This document shows positions 26,627 through 31,524 of a stretch of DNA of 64,000 bases, in pieces (positions within the stretch are counted from its first letter, which is position 1; each line of letters opens with the position of its first letter). Source of the DNA: Stenotrophomonas sp. WZN-1 (GTDB lineage: Bacteria; Pseudomonadota; Gammaproteobacteria; Xanthomonadales; Xanthomonadaceae); assembly GCF_002192255.1 (NCBI RefSeq), contig NZ_CP021768.1, positions 824,001 through 888,000 on the forward strand, given 5' to 3'. A program made the translations under genes and the position numbers. The notes below the pieces were generated by a model. The model was not told where the DNA came from and made no database searches. It was given only the letters and a program-made list of their open reading frames with translations.

Positions 26627-27901
26627 ATGGAACCTTTGGATACGCTCAACCTGTGGATGGAGCGCGCGCGGGATCGCGCACGGGCCATCAGTTTCGGCCG
26701 CTTCCTGTGGCATCGCTTCCTCGACGACCGCCTGTTCCAGGCAGCGGCGGCGCTGGCGTACACCACGGTGTTCGCGCTGGTGCCGCTGGCCATCGTGGTA
26801 TTCGGTGTGCTGTCGGCCTTCCCTGTCTTCGACCGCTGGAGCGATCAGCTCAGCGATTACGTGTTTTCCAACTTCGTGCCCTCTGCGGCGCGTGCGGCCG
26901 AGGGCTACCTGCGGCAGTTCTCGGCCAGTGCTGGCCAGCTGACGGCGGCTGGCTTCATCGCACTGGTGGCCTCACTGCTGATCACGCTCAACAGCGTGGA
27001 AGAGACCTTCAACCAGATCTGGCGGGTCGGCTCGACCCGGCCCAAGCTGACCCGCTTCCTGGTCTACTGGACCGTACTGACCCTGGGCGCCATGCTCGCC
27101 GCCGCATCGCTGGCGGTATCGGCGAGGGTGTTCGCGATGCCGTTGTTCGGTACCCAGGAGGGCCGTTGGCTGGCCGAGTTTGCACTGCGCCTGGCGCCGA
27201 TCCTGATCGAGTTCGTCTGCATCACGCTGATGTTCCGGGTGGTGCCGCACCACACGGTGAAATGGCGGCACGCCGTGCCTGGTGCGATCCTGGCGGCGGT
27301 CATCCTGGAACTGGTGAAGTGGGGCATCGGCGCCTATCTTGGCAGCTTCCAGTCCTACCAGAAGCTGTATGGCACGGTGGCCTTCGTGCCGATCCTGCTG
27401 CTGTGGATCTACCTGTGCTGGGTGGCGGTGCTGCTGGGCGCGTCGCTGGCCTCGTCGATGGCCGCCTTCCGCTACCAGCCGGTTGAACTGCGCCTGCCGC
27501 AGGGATATGAGTTCTACGGCCTGCTGCGCCTGCTCGGTCGTTTCCACCATGCCCGTGCCAAGGGCAAGGGCCTGGCCGACGATGAAATCCTGCGCCTGGA
27601 ACCGCTGTTGACCGACTCGCTGCTGCAGGATCTGGCCTGCAACCTGCAGGAGATCGGCCTGCTGCGCCGCGATGAACGCGGCGAGTGGCTGCTCGCGCGC
27701 GACCTGGACCAGGTCAGCCTGGCCGATCTGTACGAATGCACCCAGCTGCGCATCCCGGTGGCCGAGCAGCACCTGCCGTACCGCGACGACAGCCTGGGCC
27801 GTGCCGCATTGGCGGCGCTGGACGATCTGCGACTGCCCCTGCGCGAACGCCTGAAGCGCAAGGTCAGTGATATCTACACCGATTCCGGAGACATGCCATG
27901 A
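26627..27901 (+). CDS. YihY-family inner membrane protein (UPF0761)
   Basis: A 424-residue protein. The first 280 residues form the YihY/virulence-factor-BrkB domain with six membrane segments ('QAAAALAYTTVFALVPLAIVVFGVLSAFP', 'IALVASLLITLNSVEETFNQIWRV', 'YLGSFQSYQKLYGTVAFVPILLLWIYLCWVAVLLGA'). The cytosolic C-terminal part (about 290-424) is a predicted winged-helix region, common in the Xanthomonas/Pseudomonas form. The E. coli protein was once called RNase BN, but that assignment was withdrawn and the function is unknown. The stop overlaps the lipoprotein start as ATGA. Confidence 0.88.
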   Translation: MEPLDTLNLWMERARDRARAISFGRFLWHRFLDDRLFQAAAALAYTTVFALVPLAIVVFGVLSAFPVFDRWSDQLSDYVFSNFVPSAARAAEGYLRQFSASAGQLTAAGFIALVASLLITLNSVEETFNQIWRVGSTRPKLTRFLVYWTVLTLGAMLAAASLAVSARVFAMPLFGTQEGRWLAEFALRLAPILIEFVCITLMFRVVPHHTVKWRHAVPGAILAAVILELVKWGIGAYLGSFQSYQKLYGTVAFVPILLLWIYLCWVAVLLGASLASSMAAFRYQPVELRLPQGYEFYGLLRLLGRFHHARAKGKGLADDEILRLEPLLTDSLLQDLACNLQEIGLLRRDERGEWLLARDLDQVSLADLYECTQLRIPVAEQHLPYRDDSLGRAALAALDDLRLPLRERLKRKVSDIYTDSGDMP

Positions 27902-28473
27902 CCCGCAAGACCCCGTTGCCGCTGCTGCTCCCGTTGACCCTGCTGCTGGCCCTGGCGGCCTGCAAGCCGACCCAGGAGCCTGCCCCGGCGAGCAGCCAGC
28001 CGCCGGCACAGGCGCCGACGCCGACCACTCCGGCGCCGGTCGAGGAAACCCCGGCCGAGCGCACCACCGCCGAGTTCCCGACGTTGAAGATGAAGGCGGT
28101 GGATGGCAGCGACTACGATCTGGCCGCGCATCGTGGCAAGTGGGTGATCGTGAATTTCTGGGCGACCTGGTGTGCCCCGTGCCGCAAGGAAATGCCGGAG
28201 CTGTCGGCGCTGCATGCGATGCGCAGCAACATCGAGGTGGTCGGCCTGGCCTACGAGGACATCGAAGTGCCGGAAATGCAGTCGTTCCTGACCAAGCATC
28301 CGGTGACCTATCCGATCGTGATCGTGGACCCGTTCGATCCGCCCGCGGACTTCGCCACGCCGCGAGGCCTGCCGTTGACGCACCTGCTGGATCCGCAGGG
28401 CAAGCTGGCCCACACCTTCCTTGGCCCGGTGACCGCCGCCGACATCGAAAAGCAGATCGCGGCTGCCAAGTAG
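27898..28473 (+). CDS. TlpA-like thiol-disulfide lipoprotein
   Basis: A 191-residue protein with a lipoprotein signal (lipobox 'LAAC', lipidated cysteine C22), a Pro/Ala/Thr-rich spacer to about residue 55, and a thioredoxin/TlpA domain with the active site C92-A-P-C95 in 'NFWATWCAPCRKEMPEL'. The cis-proline loop is 'RGLPLTHLLD'. It would act in the periplasm anchored to a membrane, most likely as a reductant for disulfides or in cytochrome/copper-site maturation. Translationally coupled to the YihY-family gene. The last base of the stop codon is also the first base of a REP-headed composite element. Confidence 0.9.
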   Translation: MTRKTPLPLLLPLTLLLALAACKPTQEPAPASSQPPAQAPTPTTPAPVEETPAERTTAEFPTLKMKAVDGSDYDLAAHRGKWVIVNFWATWCAPCRKEMPELSALHAMRSNIEVVGLAYEDIEVPEMQSFLTKHPVTYPIVIVDPFDPPADFATPRGLPLTHLLDPQGKLAHTFLGPVTAADIEKQIAAAK

Positions 28474-28699
28474 TAGGTTGGTCGGCAGGGCCTGCGGCCC
28501 TGCACCTGCCGGATCAACGTCAACGTCAAAAGCGTGCATTCTGTGGGATGGAGGGGTGGGTCCGGTTGCGGGGGACGCCGTAAACCCGTCCCTGGGGGCT
28601 TGGCCGCGGCATCCATGCCGCGGACACCCCCGCAACCGGACCCACCCCGCCTTCGACAGATCTCCGCGATCTGCAGTAGATCCACGCCATGCGTGGATG
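28473..28699 (+). repeat. Composite structured element, copy 1 (downstream of the TlpA-like gene)
   Basis: Order on the plus strand: GTAG head at 28473 with hairpin CAGGGCC-TGC-GGCCCTG, an A/C-rich spacer, a long hairpin with 22-bp perfect arms 28553-28574 and 28627-28648 around a 52-base loop that itself folds (CCGCGGCAT/ATGCCGCGG), a 'CGACAGAT' segment, and a GTAGATCCACG... REP unit (28676-28699). It aligns along its whole length with copy 2. Confidence 0.85.
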
Positions 28700-28741
28700 A
28701 ATCTCCATCGGAATCGAATATTTCGAACTGGAATCGAAAAG

Positions 28742-28992
28742 CATCCACGCATGGCGTGGATCTACTGTGTCGACCAAGGTCGACACCCTCCATCAGCCGC
28801 AGAAATCTGTCAGAGGTGGGGCGGTGCCGGAGTGCGGGGTGTCATCCGCATGGATGCGGCTGCCAAGCCTACAAGGACGTACTTGCGGCGTCCCCGCACT
28901 CCGGCACCGCCCCACCACCCCACGGAATACCCGCTGTTGCTGTTGCTCTGGCTTCGGCAGGTGCAGGGTGCAACCCTGCCGAACAACCCTAC
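28742..28992 (-). repeat. Composite structured element, copy 2 (downstream of ppk2)
   Basis: Same order as copy 1 but on the minus strand, starting with GTAG at the ppk2 stop codon (28988-28992 region): hairpin GCAGGG/CCCTGC, spacer, long hairpin with 25-bp perfect arms 28815-28839 and 28892-28916 around a 52-base loop, 'TGACAGAT' segment, an extra 20-bp palindrome (28767-28786), then the reverse REP unit 28742-28765. The 52-base loops of the two copies match at 40 of 52 positions by my count. Confidence 0.85.
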
Positions 28993-29774
28993 TCCTCGAC
29001 CGGGAACGCCTCGATCGGCTTCAGTACATCGTAGTGCTCGCGATGCAGCTTGCCCTTCAGCTTCGGCAGCTCCGGCAACGGCGCATCCACCCGCGTGTCC
29101 GGCAACCGGTCCAGCAGGTTGCGCACCAGGGTCAGTCGCCCCAGCCGCTGATCGTTGAAATCCACCAGCGTCCACGGCGCCGCCTCGCGATGCGTCGCGC
29201 GCAGCATCGCCTCGCGGGCTTCGGTATAAGCGCTGTACTTGCTGCGGGATTTCAGGTCGACCGGGGACAGCTTCCAGCCCTTCAGCGGATCGAGATGACG
29301 CTCGGCGAAGCGCTTCTCCTGCTGCTCCTGGTCCACGCACAGCCAGTACTTGAACAGCAGGATGCCGTCATCCACCAGCAGCTGTTCGAACACCGGCGCC
29401 TGGCGCAGGAACTGCTGGTACTCGGTCTCGCTGCAGTAGCCCATCACCCGCTCGACGCCGGCGCGGTTGTACCAGCTGCGGTCCATCAGCACGATTTCGC
29501 CGGCGGCGGGAAGATGCGAGGCGTAACGCTGGAAATACCACTGCGTGGCTTCGCGGTCGGTCGGCTTGGGCAGTGCGACCACCCTGCATTGGCGTGGGTT
29601 GAGATGCTGGCTGATGGCCTGGATCGCGCCGCCTTTGCCTGCCGTATCCCGTCCTTCGAACAGTACCAGCAGGCGTTGCCCGCTGTGCTGCACCCAGCGC
29701 GCCATCGCGGTCAGTTCCAGCTGCAGCGGCAGCAGTAGTTCGTCGTAGTCCTTGCGCTTGAGCTTGGCCATCAT
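28989..29774 (-). CDS. ppk2: Polyphosphate kinase 2
   Basis: A 261-residue PPK2 that uses polyphosphate to phosphorylate nucleotides, mainly making GTP or ATP from the diphosphates. Walker A-like 'LFEGRDTAGKGGAIQAI', the lid 'MDRSWYNRAGVERVMGY' and 'FKYWLCVDQEQQEKRFAER' are all present. The single-domain length fits class I. The start (MMAKLK) is not supported by a clear ribosome-binding site; the frame is open further upstream. The stop TAG is the GTAG head of the composite element that follows it. Confidence 0.92.
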   Translation of the reverse strand: MMAKLKRKDYDELLLPLQLELTAMARWVQHSGQRLLVLFEGRDTAGKGGAIQAISQHLNPRQCRVVALPKPTDREATQWYFQRYASHLPAAGEIVLMDRSWYNRAGVERVMGYCSETEYQQFLRQAPVFEQLLVDDGILLFKYWLCVDQEQQEKRFAERHLDPLKGWKLSPVDLKSRSKYSAYTEAREAMLRATHREAAPWTLVDFNDQRLGRLTLVRNLLDRLPDTRVDAPLPELPKLKGKLHREHYDVLKPIEAFPVEE

Positions 29775-29817
29775 CACACCACGCGGGGAGGAAGCCGGAG
29801 CGTAACGCAGGGATCGC

Positions 29818-31524
29818 TCAGGGGGTGTCGACACCCTGCCAGCCGTGTTCACCTGCCAGCCGCTGCAGCAGCGCCGACAGATCGCGGGCGAAGCCAGCCA
29901 TGTCGAACAGTCCGCTGTGGTCGCGCGCCTGCGCCAGCTCGGCGCGCAGCGCGGTCAGTGCCGCAGGGTCGTTGCCCAGCGCGCTGGCGGTGGCGATGAA
30001 CGCCGCGTCGTCGGCGACATTCATCCATGCCAGCCCCAGATGGTGATTGAGGCTGCCGGCCACGCGCGCGGCGAAGGTGTCGCCCGGGCAGGTCAGTACC
30101 GGGCAGCCGGCCCACAGCGCATCGGAGGCGGTGGTGTGCGCGTTGTAGGGATGGGTGTCGAGGAACAGGTCGGCCAGCCGATACCGGGCCAGGTACTGCG
30201 GATGCGGCAGCTTGGCCATGAACACCAGGCGTGCCGGGTCCAGGCCGGCAGTCTGCGCGGCGGTGCGCAGGCGGGCGTCGGCCTGGCCGGGGCCGGACAG
30301 CAGCCACAGCACGCTGCCGGGCACGGCCTGCAGCACGGCGAAGGCGCGGCCCATGCTGCGCGGGTTGAGCTTGTAGCTGTTGTTGAAGCAGCAGAACACC
30401 ACGCCGTGTTCGGGCAGCCCGCACTCGGCGCGGGAGGGTGCCGGCTCCAGTACGCGGGTGTTGTCCGAGGGCTGGAAGGCACGTGGGACGCGCAGGACGC
30501 GTTCGCTGAAGTGCGATTCCAGCGATGCCGGCAGCACGAATTCGTCGGCGACCACGGCATCCATCCAACGCGCGCCTGATGTGCCGGGGTAGGCCAGCCA
30601 GTTCAGCTGCAGCGGGGCTGGGCGCATTGCCAGCACTTCGGGCGTGCCGCCGCCGCCCCAGCCGCGCAGGTCGAACAGCAGGTCGATGCCCTGCGCGCGG
30701 ATACGGGCCGCGATGTCGGCATGCCGCAGTGCGGCCACGTCATGCAGGCGGGTCGCGGCCTGCAGGCGTTCGCGGATGCGGCTGCCATCGGCGCGGTTCA
30801 GTGCAAACAGGTGCAGCTGCAGCGCAGGGTCATGACGCAGGTGTTCGAACAGGGCCACGGTCAGCAACCCGGTCGGATGGGCACCGAAGCCATTGGAGAG
30901 GAAGCCGACGCGCAACGGGCCGCGTGCGCGTATCTTCATTGCCGGCAAGGGCCGTACCGAGGCGGTGATCAGCGCGGCGCGCGCACGTGCGCAGGCCAGC
31001 TGCTCGGCAGCGCTGGCGTCTTCGCTGAGGAAGGCGAACGGCTCCACCGCGCCCTGGCCGGAAGCGAGCGCGGCACGTACCTGCGTGGCCAGTGCGTCCA
31101 CGTCCTGCCAGTCGCACAGGCGACGCTGCCAGGCCAGGCGCTGCGCGGCGATGTAGGGTTCGTCCGGCATCAGCGCATGCGCGCGGCGATAGGCCGCCGC
31201 AGCGCCTTCGGCATCGTCGGCATCTTCCAGCGCATGGCCCAGCCACAGCGCGATGCCCGGGTGCTGCGGGGCCAGCGCCGAGGCCTGGCCGAGCAGCCTG
31301 GCCGCGTCGGCATGCGCGCCGGCCATCCAGGCCACGCGACCCAGCCGTGCCAGTGCTTCCGGGTGGTTCGGGCGCAGCTGCAGCGCACGTCGTGCGGCCT
31401 GCTCGCCGGCAGCGATGTCGCCGGCTTCCAGTTCCAGGTCGGCCAGCATCACCCAGGCGACGAAATCGCCGGGCTGGCGTGCGATCGCCTGCTGCAGGTG
31501 CTGCCGCTGCTGCCAGGCCGACAT
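29818..31524 (-). CDS. TPR-containing O-GlcNAc transferase-like glycosyltransferase (GT41)
   Basis: A 568-residue protein, the same length as the structurally known X. campestris OGT. Residues 1-160 are TPR repeats ('AGEQAARRALQLRPNHPEALARLGRVA'), followed by two GT-B lobes: 'GFLSNGFGAHPTGLLTVALFEHL' (the HPT motif with the conserved histidine), 'LNWLAYPGTSG', 'FCCFNNSYKLNPRSMG' (UDP-binding lysine) and 'DTHPYNAHTTASDALWAGCPVLT'. The family links GlcNAc to serine or threonine of cytosolic proteins in eukaryotes; the donor and target of bacterial forms are not established. It lies 5 bases downstream of prfA on the same strand. Confidence 0.9.
   Translation of the reverse strand: MSAWQQRQHLQQAIARQPGDFVAWVMLADLELEAGDIAAGEQAARRALQLRPNHPEALARLGRVAWMAGAHADAARLLGQASALAPQHPGIALWLGHALEDADDAEGAAAAYRRAHALMPDEPYIAAQRLAWQRRLCDWQDVDALATQVRAALASGQGAVEPFAFLSEDASAAEQLACARARAALITASVRPLPAMKIRARGPLRVGFLSNGFGAHPTGLLTVALFEHLRHDPALQLHLFALNRADGSRIRERLQAATRLHDVAALRHADIAARIRAQGIDLLFDLRGWGGGGTPEVLAMRPAPLQLNWLAYPGTSGARWMDAVVADEFVLPASLESHFSERVLRVPRAFQPSDNTRVLEPAPSRAECGLPEHGVVFCCFNNSYKLNPRSMGRAFAVLQAVPGSVLWLLSGPGQADARLRTAAQTAGLDPARLVFMAKLPHPQYLARYRLADLFLDTHPYNAHTTASDALWAGCPVLTCPGDTFAARVAGSLNHHLGLAWMNVADDAAFIATASALGNDPAALTALRAELAQARDHSGLFDMAGFARDLSALLQRLAGEHGWQGVDTP

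Follow-up and report, generated by a model that had tools for sequence, protein, structure and literature searches.

A dispersed, structured repeat with paired RsmA/CsrA-type GGA loops in the tlpA-ppk2 gap of Stenotrophomonas sp. WZN-1 and in other Gammaproteobacteria

CsrB, RsmY and RsmZ are genes for small RNAs (sRNAs) with many CsrA/RsmA sites. Here we describe an element with loops of the RsmA/CsrA type that stands as an inverted pair in the gap between a TlpA-like gene (tlpA) and ppk2, within a window of 64,000 nucleotides (nt) of Stenotrophomonas sp. WZN-1 (assembly GCF_002192255.1, contig NZ_CP021768.1, positions 824,001 to 888,000, forward strand). As in the three sRNAs, several ANGGAN-type loops sit on C-G-closed stems in each RNA (PMC4005645; this and the other papers are cited from excerpts), but the element, unlike them, has two putative sites on one long rod and is present in more than 100 dispersed copies. 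RsmU of Xanthomonas, in the 3′-untranslated region (3′-UTR) of comEA, is likewise an RNA downstream of a stop codon, and binds RsmA, but it is a single locus, with RNAs of 77 and 117 nt on the sense strand, 25 bp after the comEA stop codon (PMC7694677). Identity with RsmU was rejected, the nearest match of our covariance model lying ~1.3 kb from comEA on the X. hortorum locus searched; the comEA locus of the WZN-1 genome gave no model match. TwoAYGGAY (RF01731) and the reverse complement of Bacillaceae-1 (RF01690) resemble the element in having two GGA-loop hairpins, and both were proposed as CsrA binders from motif matches, Bacillaceae-1 on its reverse strand; the excerpted text discusses them for Clostridia and for Bacillales/Lactobacillales, with no dispersed high copy number mentioned there (PMC4333381). 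Neither RF01731 nor RF01690 was among the 39 Rfam matches at E<=10 in the window region. The GTAG repetitive extragenic palindromes (REPs), or SMAG, share with the element their dispersal as palindromes, mostly downstream of genes and often in close opposite pairs, but measure 20-40 bp (PMC3733652), as against ~100 nt, conserved inner loops and arms of free sequence for the element. The long hairpin thus does not have the form of a GTAG REP (a 20-40 bp palindrome with a terminal GTAG), which the REPs at the centre of the pair do resemble.

The reading that we favour, with a probability of roughly 0.62, is that the two hairpins are members of a gammaproteobacterial RNA element, dispersed and of high copy number, the functional product of which is the RNA of one strand, here termed the GGA strand, acting as a decoy or as a clamp at 3′ ends. 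Within that reading, binding of RsmA/CsrA is probable, and a role as decoy or sponge has somewhat less than an even chance. The element itself is widespread, dispersed and structured, is absent from Rfam at the thresholds used, and has two hexaloops of the RsmA/CsrA type; its structure, strand bias, loop conservation, copy number and distribution are direct observations.

The gap between the TlpA-like gene (stop 28473, + strand) and ppk2 (stop 28989, - strand) is a single imperfect palindrome, with outer arms of 171 nt that were 73% complementary in a repeat search. It consists, as a preliminary description of the locus had it, of two copies that can be aligned along the entire composite unit, at a mean column identity of 82%. 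The features are as follows, in positions of the window.

27898..28473, + strand: TlpA-like gene, the stop codon of which precedes copy 1 (open reading frame and gene call; name from the preliminary description)
28989..29852, - strand: ppk2, convergent, the stop codon of which precedes copy 2 (open reading frame and gene call; name from the preliminary description)
28471..28692, + strand: copy 1 of the composite unit, oriented as the TlpA-like gene (alignment of copies)
28748..28991, - strand: copy 2 of the composite unit, oriented as ppk2 (alignment of copies)
28553..28648, - strand: hairpin of copy 1, 96 nt, GGA strand, with P1 of 22 bp, P2 and P3 (repeat and fold analysis)
28818..28913, + strand: hairpin of copy 2, 96 nt, GGA strand, perfect arms 28815-28839/28892-28916 (repeat and fold analysis)
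28610..28617, - strand: P2 hexaloop of copy 1 with its closing pair, CATGGATG (sequence)
28587..28594, - strand: P3 hexaloop of copy 1 with its closing pair, CAGGGACG (sequence)
28849..28856, + strand: P2 hexaloop of copy 2 with its closing pair, CATGGATG (sequence)
28872..28879, + strand: P3 hexaloop of copy 2 with its closing pair, CAAGGACG (sequence)
28655..28674, + strand: GACAGAT segment adjoining copy 1 (read from the sequence)
28795..28812, - strand: GACAGAT segment adjoining copy 2 (read from the sequence)
28676..28699, + strand: GTAG REP at the centre, copy 1 side, presumably of SMAG type (sequence; inverted repeat with 28742-28765)
28742..28765, - strand: GTAG REP at the centre, copy 2 side, presumably of SMAG type (sequence; inverted repeat with 28676-28699)

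In the repeat search the hairpin of copy 1 (28547-28574/28627-28654) had 28-nt arms of 93% complementarity and that of copy 2 (28815-28839/28892-28916) 25-nt arms of 100% complementarity, each with 52 nt between the arms. Perfect pairing extends over 22 bp in copy 1 (28553-28574 with 28627-28648) and 25 bp in copy 2, so the arm and loop lengths given previously were reproduced; a recount by hand of the identical loop positions also returned the earlier figure, 40/52. The step from GGA to GGA is 23 nt in both copies. The two arm types differ, and each recurs elsewhere in the WZN-1 genome. The preliminary description had allowed that a sole pair, or arm mismatches lacking compensation, would speak for a recent inversion-duplication confined to this locus, for which the inverted, alignable arrangement is what one would expect; the genome, however, holds ~123 copies, arm pairing is kept genome-wide, and with both arm types found elsewhere such a local origin is hardly credible.

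The copy number was obtained in two ways. A loop-core pattern, allowing <=3 mismatches, matched the WZN-1 genome 122 times, versus 4 times for a reversed control pattern. The covariance model (R1) was built from an alignment (A2) of 88 unique hairpins of this genome with a 52-nt loop in fixed register; of the 150 candidates that it scored, 133 reached E<=0.01, and 123 of these 133 exceeded 70 bits. This search, which had been proposed with the preliminary description, also returned matches in 49/274 genomes of the class. Sequence-level counts for the WZN-1 genome refer to 111 inspected core hits (part of the ~123 copies), 101 of which have long arms. The other 10 were left out of the hairpin set: five have another palindrome inside the P2 loop (432127, 1698517, 2021198, 3272426 and 3418194), one (679334) has lost the P2 hairpin and the 3′ arm, one (3290319) has a stem of 8 bp, and three (825143, 836719 and 4062036) are chance hits in coding DNA. 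Loop length is exactly 52 nt in 91/101 long-arm hairpins. The composite unit proposed earlier, which does align across the two window copies, is less constant over the genome, GACAG being found within 22 nt 3′ of the arm in 76/101 hairpins.

Pairwise identity averages 0.53 over the arms and 0.82 over the 52-nt loops; the arms form three large clusters (39, 27 and 15 of 101) with a tail of small ones. The RNAalifold consensus of the 88 unique copies comprises P1 (22 bp within 96 nt), then a junction, from which P2 and P3 arise; the 52-nt region, formerly taken as an open loop, is thus a junction bearing two small hairpins. Double changes occur at 32/38 of the predicted pairs. In an alignment (A3) of 28 matches from 26 loci in 22 other families, 98.0% of cells are paired, double changes occur in 35/37 pairs, and the covariation score is 0.942, versus <=0.14 for slid partners, with the reservations that the pair counts include one opposite-strand read among the 28 rows and that the alignment was fitted to the model. 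There is no evident arm sequence shared between families. The proposal that the arms diverge yet stay paired therefore extends from the window pair to the genome and across families. Its corollary, that such divergence marks selection, stands in part: the pattern is real, but is not proof alone, because whole-hairpin replacement and template switching also keep arms paired.

On the GGA strand, i.e. the strand opposite that of the nearest stop codon, both small hairpins read C-ANGGAN-G. What had been described simply as a conserved loop hence, when its opposite strand is read, contains loops matching the RsmA/CsrA site, for which the consensus is ANGGAN (PMC3791407), and the form bound with high affinity by CsrA/RsmE is an ANGGAX hexaloop seated immediately on a stem, closed in RsmZ by a C-G pair; pentaloops without N, which bind more weakly, or without X are also RsmE ligands (PMC4005645). 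In all 88 unique copies of the WZN-1 genome both loops keep the A, GG and A without change, and the closing C-G pair is present in 88/88 for P2 and 87/88 for P3. The N positions of P3 vary (T48 G30 A8 C2 and C57 T29 G2), while those of P2 are near-fixed in this genome (T87 C1 and T88) and variable between families. Two exact CANGGANG occur in 100/101 long-arm hairpins, the exception lacking the P3 closing G alone. P2 is not covered by the search pattern; it is intact in 102/108 core hits (the 111 less the three chance hits); among the other six, five have an inserted palindrome and one a deletion.

These loops recur in other genomes. Leaving aside three opposite-strand rows (one in A3, two in A4), two exact CANGGANG were found in 24/27 matches from other families (A3) and in 72/100 matches from named records (A4). 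Of the 28 named-record exceptions, 12 read as pentaloops (10 AGGAX, 2 ANGGA), and those that are neither pentaloops nor among the deviant loops considered further below are A-rich, disrupted or cut off. A pattern restricted to P3 was scanned over 84,980 species genomes, giving at least 120 stretches, of which 80 listed loci were examined. Among their 85 hits, 79 had a neighbouring upstream hairpin, with a GGA loop in 72; six had none, three of these being cut by a contig end. On the other side, taken as a control, a GGA loop was present in 3/63 hairpins, and 22 hits had no hairpin. The loci carry titles from Xanthomonas, Shewanella, Microbulbifer, Marinobacter, Alteromonas, Rheinheimera, Methylotuvimicrobium and others, those with a group name being, we assume, all gammaproteobacterial; two are metagenome-assembled genomes (MAGs) titled merely Proteobacteria.

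A fold selected as RNA tolerates G-U, but not A-C, and reading the opposite strand swaps the two. Among 60 distinct P1 helices delimited without the model and read on the GGA strand there are 1390 Watson-Crick pairs, 82 G-U, 5 A-C and 61 other mismatches (82 versus 5, P 5e-19, a value that, like the next, overstates independence, since the sequences are related, albeit with identical helices counted once). For the 101 long-arm hairpins, also taken without the model and read on the gene strand, 14 G-U and 36 A-C were counted, which favours the GGA strand (P 0.0026); in the model-aligned sets the ratios of G-U to A-C on the GGA strand are 34 to 10, 16 to 3 and 137 to 34. The GGA strand is therefore the selected one. 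The prior suggestion of selection for RNA or cruciform structure holds insofar as wobble and loops both speak for a structure under selection; the selected strand, however, is opposite to that of the upstream gene. We reason that strand-asymmetric mutation of transcribed DNA would push opposite to the bias seen. The counts bear equally on the idea that the arms are kept paired mainly by mutation, i.e. by template switching or whole-hairpin gene conversion, and not by selection on the fold. Whole-hairpin replacement at one locus (below) and the three large arm clusters agree with such a process, but correction would treat G-U and A-C alike, and it leaves the invariant loop positions unexplained; we thus regard it as very improbable.

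The wobble bias fixes the strand and not the molecule: folded single-stranded DNA (ssDNA) of the GGA strand would match it as well. REPs are recognised by RAYT transposases, and attC sites by integron integrases, as folded ssDNA, and on the chief rival reading the element would analogously be mobile DNA, non-autonomous and recognised in the form of folded GGA-strand ssDNA, with its loops as recombinase contacts, that lands at gene ends. G-T wobble on one ssDNA strand would yield the same bias, and the high copy number, the central GTAG REPs of the window pair and the position of copies after stop codons in both orientations all fit. So does the arrangement of close pairs in the WZN-1 genome (core to core 245-397 bp), 33/33 of which have the same relative orientation, with the GGA strands pointing outwards. 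Against mobility as the explanation are the lack of evident arm sequence shared between families and the loops, which obey the RsmA rule, pentaloop variants included; overall we consider it unlikely.

Comparison of the orthologous tlpA-ppk2 gaps of 23 related genomes with both flanks (L258 was left out since its flanking genes are rearranged) revealed that units are replaced whole. The order of the two hairpin types is swapped relative to the window in L232, L243 and L251, units are truncated in L244, L245 and L238, and they are missing or nearly so in L255, L256 and L257. The whole-unit swaps, the order reversals and the loss or reduction of hairpins in the last three gaps (in L257 with a REP array instead) are again what a mobile element would produce. 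The comparison speaks for turnover and for exchange among copies; arms that pair at a given locus therefore need not reflect local compensation, and the argument for selection rests on the invariant loop positions and the wobble bias. The order in L232, L243 and L251 is what an inversion of the stretch between the heads would give, and the L257 gap, from another Stenotrophomonas, has in place of the hairpins REP units in tandem array together with a GGGGTCGGATCC-type palindrome.

With respect to gene context, a same-strand upstream gene was called for 67/101 hairpins of the WZN-1 genome, in 64 cases at 40-180 nt before the hairpin. Its 35 single copies comprise 13 between convergent genes, 12 in tandem with the GGA strand antisense, 9 in tandem with the GGA strand sense, and 1 between divergent genes. 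For 84 hairpins from named records the corresponding counts, which are weak as the gene calls are crude, are 20 convergent, 26 tandem antisense, 21 tandem sense and 7 divergent, the rest being unclear. The upstream genes and the single divergent case among the 35 would suit a plain 3′-end structure, i.e. a long hairpin that stops exonucleases or transcription, with loops kept for some other reason. An exonuclease barrier, however, needs neither two ANGGAN hexaloops nor the strand opposite to the upstream gene, and we hold this alternative to be decidedly unlikely. As an intrinsic terminator the hairpin was rejected: a run of >=5 T within 20 nt after the arm was found in 0/101 hairpins on either strand, and, in the 84 hairpins elsewhere, once on the GGA strand and twice on the other strand.

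On the reading as an RsmA/CsrA-associated RNA, the GGA-strand transcript would form a P1 rod, mostly of 20-28 bp and of nearly any sequence, topped by a three-way junction from which P2 and P3 would each offer an ANGGAN loop or pentaloop variant, mostly on a C-G closing pair. A GGA-to-GGA distance of 23 nt suits one RsmA/CsrA dimer, such that a single dimer could clamp both loops. Binding of RsmA, transcription of the element and its role as a decoy or at 3′ ends are inferences. Any transcript running in the GGA direction, whether antisense, by read-through, or because it reaches the second member of an inverted pair, would present a site for RsmA and could in this way either titrate the protein or hold it at that 3′ end; where two copies are inverted, a transcript arriving from either side would obtain one GGA-strand copy. 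There is no preference for the GGA strand to be that of the mRNA, which is the chief weakness of a local 3′-UTR model, and because of this a decoy fed by read-through and antisense transcription is favoured.

More tentatively, and on balance doubtfully, a selfish or domesticated gammaproteobacterial repeat family may have become an RNA that captures RsmA/CsrA, its at least 100 copies constituting a distributed sponge instead of one sRNA gene. Such a sponge would be fed by read-through and antisense transcription, total intergenic transcription would help to set the level of free RsmA, and inverted pairs would guarantee a decoy on either strand. Were this true, a well-studied bacterial regulator would have a large, overlooked class of binding sites in intergenic repeats, in contrast with the known sites in sRNA genes and 5′ leaders, and a function and a strand could be assigned to DNA that is usually dismissed as palindromic repeats.

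The WZN-1 genome has one CsrA/RsmA match (E 3e-26 against a solved CsrA), which by hand count possesses Thr5, Arg6, Gln29, Arg44 and Glu46, the RNA-contact residues named in PMC4005645. PF02599 was found in 45/49 element-bearing genomes. Several observations nonetheless weigh against an RsmA/CsrA-associated role. CsrA was lacking in the other four of these genomes, G008, G069 and G100 (75, 88 and 67% complete) and G196 (98%), in which a second csrA model gave no match above its cut-off, and the association of element and CsrA was not significant across all genomes (P 0.26) or across good genomes (P 0.14). The number of copies is uneven between genomes: G165, of the same genus, had no match among the candidates scored in two surveys. 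Between tandem genes, antisense and sense placements of the GGA strand are about equally frequent, so many copies would need antisense transcription. Some loops deviate from the rule: three in A4 and one in A3 lack the first A (TGGAC, CGGAC), one in A3 is ATGGT, and three of the named-record exceptions are hexaloops on a G-C closing pair. Moreover, RsmA still bound RsmU after all four of its GGA motifs had been changed (PMC7694677), and the counting of GGA motifs therefore has its limits. Finally, the own genome may hold a conventional decoy, such that a decoy is not obviously missing. The Rfam models for RsmY (RF00195) and CsrB (RF00018) gave only matches below the gathering score in this genome. 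A CAGGAN-rich stretch downstream of comEA (C1:1119756-1119842, + strand; L260, about 1700-2020) has one such below-cut-off CsrB match (23.2 bits, E 3.2e-4) and is perhaps a longer Stenotrophomonas counterpart of Xanthomonas RsmU.

The 49 positive genomes among the 274 sampled from the class represent 39 families, by hand count from the table; 15 candidates were scored per genome in this survey, which makes the per-genome copy counts lower bounds. In a sample of the phylum, with 10 candidates scored per genome, 34/398 genomes were positive, and all 34 belong to the same class, the share of the 398 from outside the class being unspecified. The top-scoring named record is S. maltophilia D457, at 110.4 bits, and X. 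hortorum has at least 150 model matches listed and at least one further. In G012, of the same family, a single weak model match was present among the candidates scored, as compared with more than 100 copies in the WZN-1 genome. Rfam scans gave no match above the gathering score at the window element, nor at the element in the 20 loci scanned of the 26 that come from other genomes; the Rfam matches of low E for the region are mostly microRNA families that match long rods, and were set aside. In the open PubMed Central (PMC) literature nothing was recognised as the hairpin family of the tlpA-ppk2 gap.

Several side observations concern individual copies. Several copies, namely those at the five positions of the WZN-1 genome given above and those in L240, L243, L249 and L251, carry within their P2 GGA loop a further palindromic repeat of ~80 bp, for which that hairpin loop may be the target. 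Four model matches, of 48.9 to 70.4 bits, lie on the viral contigs L222, L224 and L225, and may represent either a phage-borne decoy or host DNA on prophage contigs. In a Saccharophagus MAG (L121:3112-3745) four copies of the element stand in tandem with a period of ~180 bp.
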